From: Cystobasidiopsis lactophilus
Taxonomy: Eukaryota; Basidiomycota; Agaricostilbomycetes; Agaricostilbales; Chionosphaeraceae
NCBI GenBank assembly: GCA_001599975.1
Contig: BCIO01000001.1
Location: forward strand, 2,762,733-2,826,732
Length of the DNA stretch: 64,000 nt
Direction of reading: 5' to 3'
Of this stretch, positions 54,937 to 61,745 are shown piece after piece. Position numbers and translations under genes: made by a program. The notes beneath the pieces were generated by a model, which worked only from the letters and a program-made list of their open reading frames with translations, had not been told where the DNA came from and did no database searches. Within the stretch, counting starts at the first letter, position 1, and the number at the start of each line of letters is the position of its first letter.

Positions 54937-56057
54937 ATGGTTGGCGGCACTTTGGAGCGGCTGACTTCGAGCGTGGCAGAACCCTTGGTCAGCGGAGACC
55001 TCTCCCAGCCTTTGAACAAGTGCTCACAAATTATGAGCAGGGCTTGTCAAGGCTGCCAGAACATGCTCACACGATCACACTGAGCTTTCTCACCTGTTTC
55101 GCACTCGAGCTCATCGTCAGCCCGACGTTGTTCGGCCGCGTGCCTCAATATGCCGCTCTAAAGCCCAAGACCAGGTGGGTAGCAGACGCGACTGGGCTCT
55201 TCCGTTCCACGCTGATGCCCAATTGATTGCCCAGACGCGATTGGGACATTCGCATCGTCGCTTTCTTGCATGCCGTGTTTGCGACGATCGCGGCCGCCAG
55301 TCTTCAGCTGAATCCCGTGCTGTTCGCTCAGCTCAAAGCCGATAAAATCTTTGCATACGTTCCCGAAGCTGCAAGCCTGTACGCGGTGTCTGCCGGCTAC
55401 TTCTTATGGGACACCGCTGTGTCCACGGCGTCAATTTCTTCGCCCGGCGGGCCCGGTTTCTTTGTATGCGCGTCTCTCATGCGGTCAACTTTGTCCAGCC
55501 CCTAACAAATCGGGCAGATCCACGCCATCCTTTGCTTGGCGGTCTTCCTCTCCAGCTTCCGGCCTTTCCTCCAGTACTTTGGCGCCGTTTTCCTCTTGTT
55601 CGAAACTTCCTCCATCTTCCTCAATATCCACTGGATCTTGGACAAGGTCAACATGACCGGTAGCCGCCTTCAGCTTGTCAACGGCATCTTGCTTCTGGCA
55701 AGCTTTGCTGCCTCGAGGCTGGTGTACGGCTCCGGCGCGTCGTGGGAGTTTGTGAGGGAAATCAACAGGCCAGAAGTGAAGGCCAAACTGCCGTGGTTCT
55801 TGCCTTGGGCCATCGAGGCCAGCCTGTTCATTTTGATGTGTGCGTTTTGAACTCCGTTCAGTCGAATCCTGGCCCATACCACTTTTCCCGCAGGCCTCAA
55901 TGTCTATTGGTTCAACGCCATGGTCAAAGGTAAGGCTTCTTTACCTGCGCAAGCACGAAAAGCCATCAGTCGCGCCTGATGCCTTTTTTGGGTAGCCATC
56001 CGCAAACGCTTTGATGGCTCGAAACGACCGCCGGCGGCACCTAGAAAAGAGACCTAG
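54937..56057 (+). CDS. TLC-domain multispanning membrane protein
   Basis: MVGGTLERLTSSVAEPLVSG then DLSQPLN is joined through a 32-nt intron (55020-55051, GTGCTC...TCAAG) to KLPEHAHTITLSFLTCFALE. Then come IVAFLHAVFATIAAASLQLN, ASLYAVSAGYFLWDT, a spliced LCMRVSHAVNFVQ and FGAVFLLFETSSIFLNIHWI. LQLVNGILLLASFAASRLVY, AIEASLFILM and LNVYWFNAMVKAIRKRF follow, ending in KRPPAAPRKET (stop 56055-56057). The order of helices, the H(A)x2F and E-x-S-S-x-F-x-N motifs and the WFxxMVK end fit the TRAM-LAG1-CLN8 domain family. Members include ceramide synthases and lipid regulators such as TLCD4/TMEM56. This protein lacks the double His of ceramide synthase (LAG1 motif), so it is more like the TLCD4 group. 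Function unknown, probably ER lipid handling. Confidence 0.85.
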
Positions 56058-56361: not shown

Positions 56362-57900
56362 ATGGGGGCCAGCGGCAAACCTATTTTATTCCAGCCCTTA
56401 AGGGTCGGGCAGATGGCGCTATCAAACCGCTTAATCATGGCACCTCTCACTCGATTTCGCGCCGACGACGAGCACATCCATCATGGTAGGGCTAATCTAT
56501 CCCTCGTCAACACTCCCACACTTTTTCTAACCTCGTAAGTACCAGAAATCGCCGAAGAGTACTATGGTCAAAGAGCCCAGTTCCCGGGCACATTGCTCAT
56601 TTCGGAGGCCACTTTCATCCACCCAGCGGCTGGCGGGTACGAAAATGTCCCGGGCATCTACAACAAAGAGCAGATCGCTGCTTGGAAAAAGGTCGTGGAC
56701 GCCGGTAAGCGTTGTTGCTGCCATGGAATGGGAGGCGCACATCTGAAGCGTTGTCGCCGAGTCAGTACATGAGAAAGGCTCCTTCATCTTTCTGCAGTTG
56801 TGGGCACTCGGACGAGCTGCAGAAGGCTCGGTGATGGCGAAGGAGGGGCAGGACGTCGTCTCGTCGTCTGACGTGCCCTTAACGGGAGGGGCCAAGCCCA
56901 GGTCGATGACTCTGGAAGAGATCGAGGCCTTCAAGCAGCATTACGCCCAGGCCGCCAAGAACTTCGTCGAAGGGGCCGGTGGCGACGGCGTGGAGATTCA
57001 CGGCGCTGTGAGTGACCCAGCTTATCGTGAGTTGGAGAAAAAGGCTGACGATGGCCTTGCTGTGCGCTACCAGAATGGGTGAGCAAGCCTGCGGTTGCCT
57101 TCAGTGTCTGTTCGGTATCAAAAGCTGTGCTGCGAGCAGATACCTCATTGACCAATTCTTCAGCAAAACGTCCAACAAACGCTCGGATCGTTTCGGAGGT
57201 TCCGTCGAGAATCGCATTCGCTTTGGTCTGGAGGTAGTTGACGCCGTCGTAGCGGCCGTCGGCCCGCAGCGCGTGGGAATTCGCATTTCGCCCTATTCGC
57301 CGTTTCAAGAAATGAAAATGTCGCATGAAGACACTGTGGCCACCTTCAGTGCCTTCGTCAAGGCACTCAAGCAAGCGCATCCGGCCTTTGCCTATCTCCA
57401 TGCAGTGGCGACAAGGATCAGCGGCGGTGGCGATGTGGACGCAAAGGACCAGGCCGATCAAGAAGAGACTTTGGATTTTTTGGTGCGCCGGCAGCAACGT
57501 TTGGCCCGTTCTTACCTCAGTGAACCCTTCTGCAGCACAACATCTGGGCGCCTAGTCCCTTTCTGATTGCAGGTGGATTCTTGCGCGACACTGCCATCGA
57601 AGCGGCAGCTAAATTTGACAACTCTGGCATTGTCTTCGGCCGTTACTTCATTTCGAATGTGAGCCTGACTCTGCCTGCACACTGTCCTCTACCGTACTGA
57701 CAAACCGACCGGTCAGCCTGACCTGGTATATCGATTGGAACAGGGTCTCCCACTAGAGCCGTACAACCGCAAAACTTTTTATTTGAAGGGGCCCACTCAG
57801 CGCGAAGGTGAGAGTGGACATGATTCGTGGTTGACTCCCAAGTGATCTCTACGTGACAGGCTACACGACGTATGCGAACTACCCGCAGCAGAAGCTATGA
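56362..57900 (+). CDS. Old yellow enzyme family NADH:flavin oxidoreductase
   Basis: [34 protein letters not shown] is the FMN-binding start. Then come [48 protein letters not shown] and [20 protein letters not shown]. The HGANGYLIDQFF motif is followed by [27 protein letters not shown], and [20 protein letters not shown] then [15 protein letters not shown]. The end [13 protein letters not shown] stops at 57898-57900. This is the canonical OYE TIM barrel (about 370 residues). Its substrates are alpha,beta-unsaturated carbonyls, reduced with NAD(P)H; the physiological substrate is unknown. HGANGYL is assembled from three exons: HGA ends at 57007, Asn-Gly comes from a 5-nt exon at 57074-57078, and YL starts at 57140. 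The [10 protein letters not shown] segment has Trp-Ala where many family members have W-H-x-GR. Confidence 0.93.
57074..57078 (+). other. 5-nt microexon of the old yellow enzyme gene
   Basis: The bases AATGG are flanked by an acceptor (gctaccag) and a donor (GTGAGC). They restore Asn and two bases of Gly between ...GGCGCT (57007) and ATACCTC (57140), giving HGANGYL. Without the microexon the joined frame would lose two invariant residues and shift out of frame. Confidence 0.85.
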
Positions 57901-58923
57901 GAGCGCCCGCCGCTGGGCGTTGCCACTCGTTGCTCAAACTGAAGCGGCCGATGCTGCGCGCTTGGCAAGGATGCGCGGGAGTCTAAGGAAATTAAGAAAG
58001 ACGACGCATTGTAGAGCAACTGTAGCTAGTGAATAGACCGAATTCGGATGCTGCGCGATGCGGTGGCGGTCCGGAAAGACTTGGAGCCTGCCTGGATTGA
58101 TGGCTCGCGACAGTTGGATTGCGAGAGCCGTGTCTGACTCACAGCGGTTTGGGTTCAACGGAACTTAACGTGACTTCCAAACTAGCAAACTGGCCGCTGC
58201 ATCCACATCGGTGACCAATCAAACTTGGAAGAAGAAGATGATGATGACGAAATCCCATTTCAAGTCTTTGGCGGACAATGTACCCCGCATGTAGACCTCC
58301 GCATGTTGTAAAGTTCCCTCGTACCTTTGCTCACGTGAAGACGTTGGCGCAGGCGAGAGTGTGTTGAAAAAGAAAGAGGAGAAAAAATGGTGCCGAAAGG
58401 TGAAGAAACGGCGGCGAAAGGTGTAAAAACGGCAAAGTTGAGAAAGAAGACTGGGGTCATGTGACCTCCGATCGTAGCCTGGGGCCCGATTACTAGGGAG
58501 CTCTGAATTGAGCTTAGAAATGGCTGCCGCGGGGCGCTCAAAGGCGCCGGAGAGGGTTCCAGAGCCCCAGAGGGGATGTAGGGGTGCCCAAAGGGCTTGG
58601 ATGTATGGTCTCGGTTCTAAGTCTGCCAGGGATAGAATTTGGGGGCCTTGCGAGCCGTGGGGGATGGCGTTGTGCAAGGCATTTTGGACTTAGAATGAAA
58701 ATTGGGTGAGCTTTGGGGGACCACAAGTGGCCTGCGGGGTGTCTTTGGCTCCGTGAGGCCGGCGGATGGCTTTTGGAGGCCATCCGTACCAATCCCTCAG
58801 CTGTGGAACATGGGCAGCTCTACCTTGAACAAAAACGGCAGCGACTCCGGTCGTCTGAGGTGCGTGCCGGCGAGCTCGCGTGGCGCTCACGTCTGCTTGG
58901 CNATCGCCTAACTCATTTTTGAG
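57901..58923. other. Intergenic and retrotransposon-flanking DNA
   Basis: About 1 kb with no conserved frame. A short direct repeat of about 20 bp (GAAAGGTGwArAAACGGC type) occurs twice near 58395-58432. The frames from about 58700 onward read toward the ORF1-like segment that follows, and one ambiguous base is at 58902. Most of 58.5-58.9 kb may already belong to a mobile element. Confidence 0.4.
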
Positions 58924-59445: not shown

Positions 59446-61010
59446 CTTGGCTTACATCATGCAACGGACGAGGAAGTCAGGCTTCGGGTCTGACCCAGTA
59501 ACGGGGAAACCGCTTAGTGGGCAGGGCAAAATTCAGAGTATGAGGGACCACTCTCGGGTTGGAGAGCAACTCCTTGAGGTCGCCGGCTCGCTTGGCTCTG
59601 ACCCGCCGCCTCAGAACACGCCTCGCCTCTTTGTGGAGGGGGCACACCATCAAGAAGTGCCTCCGAGTCTCTCTCGCGCCACACTTGCACTTGTCTGAGT
59701 CCACGAGCTTCATGGCGTACATGGGGGCCCGCAGCTCAGAGCGGTTGGTGCGCAGCTGGGTGAGAATGGCTGATTGCGGCTTGAGCAGCTCCTTGTGTAG
59801 GCCTGTGCGTTTGAATCCTCCAGTGATCATTGAAACCGCCATTGCCTGAACCTTGGTCATGAGCTTCTCCAGCTTCTTTGTTCCGTGCTTCCCTGGGGCG
59901 TGCCAGACTTGCGAGGCGTAGTCCAGGCGAGGGAGGACGATTGCCACGAAGAGCTGGCGGAAATATCTGTGAGAGACTCCCTTCGTCGTCTTCGCTAGCC
60001 TTGAGAGTGCTAAGAGGTACTCGGTGGCTTTGGCAGCCCTTTGAACCACATGCGCTTCAAAATTGAGTCGTTGATTGAGGACGACCCCGAGCAGCGTCGT
60101 CTCTTGGACCCTGGGGACGACTTCGCCATTCAAGAGCACGTCGAGCTCTTCCTCCTTCGGCAGCTTGCGCTGAGCTGAACAGTGCACCGACTTGAAGCCC
60201 TTCGAGACCTCGTATTGGGCTACATGCCTCTTGCCCCAGCGCTCTGTGAGCTCAGCCTTCGCTTGAGCGAGTAAATTGGCTTCCCTTAAAGTCTTGGCCC
60301 AGACGGCATTCGTTAGATCGTCGATCCAGCCCACCGACCGAGCGGACTTGCAGCGCCAGGCTTCGAGCAGGGGGGCCGTGTAGAAATGGAACAGCGGGCA
60401 GGACAGAGGAGACCCAGTAGGCACGGCGAAGTTCGGTGTCGTAACGATGGGGCTGGACTTGACGTCATCTACGCACAGAATCGTGCTCCTGTCTTCGAGA
60501 AAATTCTTTAGGTACGCCACCAGAATCGGTGGAATGCCCTTCCGCTTTAGGGTTCGCAGCAGAGACTCATGCCAAACATTAGGGAAGGCTCCCTGGAAGT
60601 CGACGCCCAAAGTGATCACCACGTCTCCTTGGCGCCACCTGTGCTTGATCTGGTCGATGAGGTCTAGAACGGCCTGCTCACAACTTCGACCTGGACGGCC
60701 GCCGTAATGCTCTGGCGGCAGCGCCCCGTGGTCTCCATAGTAAGCGAGTCGTCTGGCTACGACCTTTTCGAGGCCTTTGCTCAGGACGCTAAGCAGGGAA
60801 ACCATCCGGTAAGCTTTCGCCAGTGAGTAGTCTGCCTTCTTCGGTTTGGCCAGGACGACGCCTAAAGCCTCCTTCAAGGGGCGCGGGTGGTACTCCTGGT
60901 GAATGCACGCTCTGTAAAAAGGACAGACGAGGGCCTTGAGGAGCGGCCAGCCGACCTGAAGCACGAGGAAGGGATTGCCGTCAACGCCCAGCGCTTTTCG
61001 TGGAGCGACT
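59445..61010 (-). mobile_element. 5'-truncated non-LTR retrotransposon (LINE copy A)
   Basis: A minus-strand reverse transcriptase frame is open for over 500 codons from about 61010 to 59477. The 3' flank after the stop is short and no poly(A) was seen. The 5' border at about 61010 coincides exactly with the start of the 61011-61745 repeat, implying insertion or recombination there. A second copy of the last 70 bases of the same family lies in opposite orientation at 62873-62945. Confidence 0.85.
59477..61009 (-). pseudogene. LINE reverse transcriptase with C-terminal zinc knuckle, RNase H missing
   Basis: From the truncated 5' end (KALGVDGNPFLVLQVG) the RT blocks are in order: YRMVSLLSVLSKGLEKVVAR, YGGRPGRSCEQAVLDLI, motif A ITLGVDFQGAFPNV, motif B PTGSPLSCPLFHFYTAPLL, motif C SVGWIDDLTNAV (catalytic Asp pair kept, preceded by Trp-Ile rather than the usual Tyr/Phe-x) and motif D region YEVSKGFKSVHCS. 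The thumb LDYASQVWHAPGKHGTKKLE follows, and MITGGFKRTG then passes straight to QSAILTQLRTNRSELRAPMY. The zinc knuckle is CKCGARETRRHFLMVCP, and the end is FALPTKRFPRYWVRPEA. In related LINEs an RNase H domain sits between thumb and knuckle; here it is absent. Endonuclease and most upstream parts are lost, so the copy is not autonomous. Confidence 0.85.
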
Positions 61011-61745
61011 GTTCTGGAGTGTGCCAGGCGACCTGGGGGAGGCGGCCGAGGCCTGTGGAGCGAGTTTGGGCAAGCAGCAAGAGCAGAGCCTTCAGAGGCT
61101 CAAGTTGCGTCGTTGGCGGCTTGCTGGGTCGGCATCACGATGAGCAGGATACCACCACCGCTTTCGTTGTGGTGGCCCGTGCGTTGGTGCTGCAGGGAAG
61201 GAGATATTTGGTCTGGGGGCCACTCGTCTCGCCATTCTGCCAGCCGCTGCTATTCTACAAAGGTTGCACAGTTATCTACAGAGCTTTGGGCTAGACCGCT
61301 GAGGCATTGTGATCCAGATGCACCGAGGCAGAGGAGGAGGAGGCTTCCAGAGAAAGAGGGGCGGTGACGGCAGCAAGCAGGCCTCGAGCGTGCAGCGGGG
61401 CCAGCGGTCGCCCTCCTCAACGTTCAAACAAGGGGGCGTTCAGGCAGACGTCAAGCGCCGTTTGCGTGAAATGAAGGAGCTGAAAAGAGAGGAGGCTCAG
61501 CACGGCCGTCGTCTGGAGGATGAGAAGCGTGCGCGCGAGACCGACAAGGTTGCTCGGTACTGGGCAGAGGTGGAGCATGGCAAGGCTCTGGAGCAAAAAG
61601 TGGCCGACGGGGAGGCACGGTTGGCTCAGATCAGGGAGTGGTTCGACAGCCGCTACCCTGTCATTTTGCGAGGGTTGGACAACCTCAAGAAGTCATTTGC
61701 CGAGTGGGAGGATGAGCTGGCTGGTCTGAACCTGGTGCGCTTCTT
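61011..61745 (+). repeat. Repeat unit R, + copy, with a basic coiled-coil reading frame
   Basis: This segment is nearly identical, in inverted orientation, to 63130-63835. It carries a frame starting MHRGRGGGGFQRKRGGDGSK at 61318, continuing GVQADVKRRLREMKELKREE and WFDSRYPVILRGLDNLKK to about 61740, where it is cut by the tail of LINE copy C. Gly/Arg-rich start plus a coiled coil resembles ORF1 of a non-LTR element. Upstream of the Met is about 300 bp of leader conserved between the two copies. Confidence 0.7.

Follow-up and report, generated by a model that had tools for sequence, protein, structure and literature searches.

A 5-nt exon predicted to carry the catalytic asparagine of an old yellow enzyme in Cystobasidiopsis lactophilus

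The codons for the active-site motif of a predicted old yellow enzyme gene of the basidiomycete Cystobasidiopsis lactophilus appear to be interrupted by two introns only 5 nt apart. Can the five bases between them, AATGG, be an exon, and how might such an exon have arisen? The gene lies in the window, the whole stretch of 64,000 nt that was analysed (contig BCIO01000001.1 of assembly GCA_001599975.1, positions 2,762,733 to 2,826,732 of the forward strand), and was modelled with eight exons comprising 375 codons and a stop codon. Its features are given here in window coordinates; intron 1 and intron 2 denote throughout the pair on either side of AATGG.

56362-56485, forward strand: exon 1 of the old yellow enzyme gene, 124 nt, with the start codon
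56546-56704, forward strand: exon 2, 159 nt; acceptor at 56545 preferred over 56539
56766-57007, forward strand: exon 3, 242 nt, with H-G-A at its end
57008-57073, forward strand: intron 1 of the pair, 66 nt, phase 0, gtgagt...taccag
57074-57078, forward strand: microexon AATGG, 5 nt, from the sequence read, spliced alignment, shuffles and parse enumeration
57079-57139, forward strand: intron 2 of the pair, 61 nt, phase 2, gtgagc...gagcag
57140-57482, forward strand: exon 5, 343 nt
57536-57658, forward strand: exon 6, 123 nt
57717-57807, forward strand: exon 7, 91 nt
57860-57900, forward strand: exon 8, 41 nt, with the stop codon

Exon 3 ends ...ATT CAC GGC GCT at 57007. AATGG contributes the codon of the catalytic Asn and the first two bases of the next Gly codon, and exon 5 opens A TAC CTC from 57140, with the third Gly base followed by Tyr and Leu. 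The joined codons CAC GGC GCT AAT GGA TAC CTC read H-G-A-N-G-Y-L. Canonical GT-AG introns lie on both sides (gtgagt...cag and gtgagc...cag), and at 5 nt the exon falls among microexons, taken as internal exons of 15 nt or less. Intron 1 has a GCTGACG branch site 25 nt before its end, a length divisible by three and no in-frame stop; the branch-site candidate of intron 2 is a weak TATCAAA, 19 nt before its end. The first-pass annotation had given the coordinates and flanks of AATGG correctly in every detail on direct reading, and had claimed that the exon is required to rebuild HGANGYL. For the first intron of the gene (from 56486), one PDB query led to the acceptor at 56545 and the other to 56539; 56545 was favoured because of the HHE junction of the sister gene, L001 on contig C7.

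The requirement for AATGG was borne out by several approaches. Two-intron parses were enumerated with GT or GC donors, AG acceptors, an outer donor at 57000-57069, a last acceptor at or before 57145 and introns of at least 36 nt, and a single parse gave the motif. One-intron parses were enumerated with GT, GC or AT donors, AG or AC acceptors and a minimum of 26 nt; none yielded it, and a single-intron reading, AT/AC ends included, was rejected. A custom protein-to-genome spliced aligner, which allows GT/GC-AG introns in three phases, was queried with two PDB proteins and arrived unprompted, with each, at the 5-nt exon and an identical pair of introns. The local alignment score fell from 173 to 143.5 when AATGG was masked. 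Dinucleotide shuffles of 57014-57133 (120 nt) reached a maximum of 165, and 0 of 1500 attained the real score. The profile score reported below agrees with these results, and no other junction giving the same residues, the finding that would have spoken against the exon, occurred among the enumerated parses.

Few bases are involved, and NGYL was rebuilt by some parse in 7 of the 1500 shuffles, so AATGG could in principle be a chance look-alike in a broken gene or in one that uses another junction. This reading is extremely improbable, given a real score matched by no shuffle and a motif obtained from no other enumerated parse. All seven remaining exons are open, with GT-AG introns between them, and the comparison with L001 (70.6% identity over 367 aligned residues) gave a dN of 0.22 and a dS of 1.64 (NG86), a dN/dS of about 0.14. 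Judged from the sequence, the 5-nt exon is almost certainly real and functional.

The spliced protein matched PF00724 with 309.3 bits (cut-off 27) over residues 9-346 and profile positions 2-342 of 342. A PDB search, run with a 377-aa version that is two residues longer (acceptor 56539), returned 138 distinct sequences at E ≤0.001, 60 of them listed; the best match was 4qnw (chanoclavine-I aldehyde reductase, E 4.5e-91), and yeast NADPH dehydrogenases (old yellow enzymes) came next. In the four PDB alignments printed, HGANGY is aligned without gaps to HSANGY or HGANGY. The active-site pattern His-x-x-Asn-x-Tyr is present, and corresponds to H 192, N 195 and Y 197 of 37fx, which is the published numbering plus one. 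His191, Asn194 and Tyr196 of OYE1 are described as lying in the same active-site loop and contributing to substrate binding (PMC4002455). By alignment, the microexon Asn is the predicted equivalent of OYE1 Asn194, and the gene product is predicted to be a functional fungal old yellow enzyme (FMN ene-reductase).

Around the enzyme gene, part of a gene for a TLC-domain (TRAM/LAG1/CLN8) membrane protein was found directly upstream at 55506-55850 on the forward strand (PF03798, 66 bits). A 540-codon open frame at 59480-61099 on the reverse strand carries a reverse transcriptase domain (PF00078, 73 bits) and is probably a non-LTR retroelement. The assembly base at 58902 is ambiguous (a single N).

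Splice signals were ranked among 68 of the 72 modelled introns of the enzyme family, four outside 45-75 nt having been dropped. Because consensus donors and CAG acceptors are rewarded by the aligner, the whole set leans to consensus; branch sites played no part in the alignment. The donor of intron 1 ranks first, its branch site fourth and its acceptor 47th. Intron 2 has the tenth donor, the first acceptor (with ties) and a branch site in 65th place, the fourth-weakest. Of 47 introns (45 hand-picked plus the pair), 34 carry a CTNAY branch motif that lies 8-45 nt before the intron end, intron 1 among them and intron 2 not.

The consequences of other splicing outcomes were computed. When AATGG is skipped, the frame continues as ...HGAIPH and stops at the fourth codon after the skipped exon, giving a 178-residue protein. 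Keeping intron 2, or both introns, places a stop directly after NG. Because skipping gives a premature stop, inclusion of AATGG is expected, from the reading frame, to be constitutive in the mRNA. The same stop also suits a different reading, in which the outer donor and acceptor often pair and the transcripts lacking AATGG are destroyed, setting the enzyme level, or in which the 132-nt interval is one complex (nested) intron. The top ranks of donor 1 and acceptor 2 make the outer pair a plausible competitor, and in Aspergillus and Neurospora a stwintron has been shown to be linked to exon skipping (PMC6616335). Nevertheless, this reading is very unlikely: productive mRNA must keep AATGG as exon sequence because the frame requires it, the outer pair would depend on the weak branch site of intron 2, and the splice elements of each intron are left intact by the other. 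A stwintron had also been tried as a candidate structure for the interval and was rejected, since AATGG lies between two complete introns and its removal breaks both frame and motif.

Intron 1 is a separate case. Its retention alone keeps a full-length open frame of 397 aa with 22 extra residues between Ala and Asn, and the sister gene has intron 2 alone, both of which would fit a variant with a changed active-site loop, constitutive or regulated, from which intron 1 is removed partly or not at all. We regard such a variant as very improbable indeed. The intron-1-retained protein scored 291.9 bits against PF00724 (17.4 less) with the match broken in two pieces, and an insert at this point is seen neither in the four printed PDB alignments nor in the models of the 11 paralogs. 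The insert would part His from Asn, which bind substrate together. Intron 1 also has the best donor and a near-best branch site of the ranked set. As a rough estimate, 22 stop-free codons have a chance of about 0.4, and a length divisible by three one of 1/3, which makes the open frame unremarkable.

We therefore favour, with high confidence, an explanation in which a functional old yellow enzyme gene would contain two U2-type introns 5 nt apart and a constitutive AATGG exon with the catalytic Asn. Several observations count against it: the low ranks of the intron 2 branch site and of the intron 1 acceptor, the open 397-aa frame that retention of intron 1 would give, the lack of a paralog with the microexon among the 11, and the lack of any other exon of 16 nt or less among the 123 internal exons modelled in two families. 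Under the favoured explanation, the two ordinary U2-type introns inside the active-site codons would each be recognised by intron definition, because an exon of 5 nt leaves hardly any room for the factors of its two sides to bind together. Intron 1 would probably be removed first, because it combines the best donor with a near-best branch site among the family introns, and its removal would join AATGG to exon 3. The joined AATGG would leave a normal donor, and intron 2, with its weak branch site, would be removed second. Intron definition is described as the default for short introns and has been proposed for exons too small for exon definition (PMC8378409). For the 4-bp exon of MPC1, strong exon definition signals around the exon are reported instead (PMC9929638), and the mechanism is therefore not settled in general.

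The origin of the pair was approached through the paralogs. Exon-level matches (24) in the assembly (22.1 Mb, 8 contigs) were grouped into 12 family genes including the window gene, the models of distant paralogs being partial, so that at least 11 other family members are present in the genome. The assembly also gave 37 matches to PF04082, a fungal transcription factor domain that is absent from all 14 control genomes, as expected of a fungus. The motif, which had been called invariant, is not: HSANGYL, HAANGYL, HCAHGYL, HGAHGYL, HCSHGYL, HGAAGYL and HAAHGFL occur in family members of the same genome. L001 lacks intron 1 and has intron 2, identically placed and in phase 2, as well as the remaining five introns of the window gene. 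In three distant paralogs, L015, L016 and L023, the exact intron-1 site is occupied and the intron-2 site is empty. The intron-2 site is filled in L001 and in L006, which has another intron 21 nt upstream of it. Conservation of the microexon in relatives had been proposed as a check on it; among the 11 same-genome paralogs as modelled, none has both introns and hence the same microexon, and each of the two introns occurs on its own, identically placed, in some of these genes. A viral contig scan found no relative. By its sequence, then, the microexon appears to be two ordinary introns, each found separately elsewhere, that lie 5 nt apart.

A tree of the 12 proteins paired the window gene with L001 (support 100/100). 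The intron-1 site needs four changes on it, at least three of them forced by well-supported branches, and the intron-2 site needs two. Since L001 has intron 2 and not intron 1, either the window copy gained intron 1 or L001 lost it. That introns were gained more than once at the intron-1 site is plausible. For a basidiomycete gene family (PMC3584928), and for fungi that carry introner-like elements (PMC4457414), it has been proposed that introns were gained in parallel; the former report describes parallel losses as much more frequent than gains, which makes a parallel gain here less likely. An introner-like element was rejected as a candidate source: each intron matched only itself in the 22.1 Mb at E ≤1, in a search that skips very common words and does not prove the absence of copies. 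A recent introner origin is unsupported because no second copy of either intron was seen; older copies would have diverged. Beside L001, an aldehyde dehydrogenase match (L032) lies about 2 kb upstream of the first L001 match on the same strand, the pair being located at C7:229199-232952, and the two possibly form a small metabolic cluster.

Intron sites proved to be dense at the motif. The 12 genes have 54 distinct sites, nine of them within one 36-nt stretch that encodes the motif. This stretch holds 15 introns in 11 of the 12 genes (L002 has none there). Introns of L006, L008, L019, L024, L021 and L003 occupy seven further distinct motif sites within these 36 nt, and leave small exons of 20 nt (L008), 21 nt (L006) and 32 nt (L019). 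Under random placement, some 36-nt stretch was as dense in 11 of 5000 trials; the test treats sites as independent, while neighbouring sites may be one shifted intron, and distant paralog models may be off by a site. As a control, nine aldehyde dehydrogenase genes were built from 20 matches (11 of 59 first-look candidates were scored, and the family may be larger). These nine genes have no exon shorter than 17 nt and at most 7 of 63 sites in any 36 nt, a density reached in 839 of 5000 placements and not significant. A control with neither tiny exons nor a cluster implies that the method does not create either everywhere.

Exon sizes were compared across both families. Among 123 internal exons the smallest are 5, 17, 17, 18 and 20 nt. 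Uniform placement of introns at the observed density (5.8 and 6.3 per kb) predicts 3.65 exons no longer than 5 nt and 11.3 no longer than 16 nt; one was seen in each class, although the aligner charges per intron and may miss poorly conserved tiny exons. With fewer tiny exons than expected, very short exons are avoided, and AATGG is an outlier. It is possible, if doubtful, that introns have repeatedly been gained and lost at the catalytic-loop codons of this enzyme family in this fungus, making them a hotspot, that the window gene gained intron 1 in parallel, at a site filled independently in distant paralogs, and that the microexon is a by-product of two hotspot sites being filled together.

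The finding is relevant to the annotation of fungal ene-reductases, since a gene model without AATGG lacks the catalytic Asn and is cut off or distorted at the active site. Both parent introns occur separately in paralogs of the same genome, which makes a gain/loss origin of ultra-small exons testable in a short-intron fungus. Less expected is how densely intron sites cluster on a single catalytic motif.

No report of a microexon in an old yellow enzyme was found in a literature search of titles and abstract openings. Exons of this size are known from other genes, and AATGG is a further example of them, not a new kind. The view that 5 nt is near the lower limit of recognition does not agree with published 1-nt exons (PMC4674806, PMC12940212). 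One is the constitutive 1-nt exon of Arabidopsis APC11, reported to have been tested in vivo with GFP fusions (PMC4674806); like AATGG it is ultra-small and coding, but it is a plant exon of a single nucleotide. Plant microexons of 1-15 nt are described as often missed by annotation, and include an RT-PCR-checked 5-nt exon in rice (PMC8831610). They fall in the size class of AATGG; their definition came from RNA-seq, and they are said to be conserved across species. The 4-bp microexon of MPC1 (PMC9929638) is similar in size, constitutive and not a multiple of three, but is not fungal. Among fungi, the P450 genes of Phanerochaete chrysosporium have a shortest reported exon of 6 bp (PMC1184071). 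As in the present family, small introns are frequent in a fungal enzyme family and their patterns vary within larger gene clusters; the difference is that these are P450 genes, described from assembled gene models supplemented by some cDNAs. PMC12940212 also cites, for the white rot fungus Phanerochaete, an 8-nt exon that lies in a P450 motif. A further likeness is to CYP621A of Fusarium, a P450 gene with a 1-nt exon in its PKG motif, for which transcript reads and 20 orthologs are reported (PMC12940212). In both cases, two introns surround an ultra-small exon in a conserved motif of a fungal enzyme gene, and the Fusarium exon was likewise inferred from the reading frame, together with an intronless relative. 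The Fusarium exon is 1 nt long and has transcript reads, whereas the exon described here is 5 nt long and predicted from the sequence. The proposed origins also differ: the Fusarium authors propose that bases were lost and a cryptic exon adopted, whereas the old yellow enzyme introns occur separately in paralogs, which suggests intron gain or loss.
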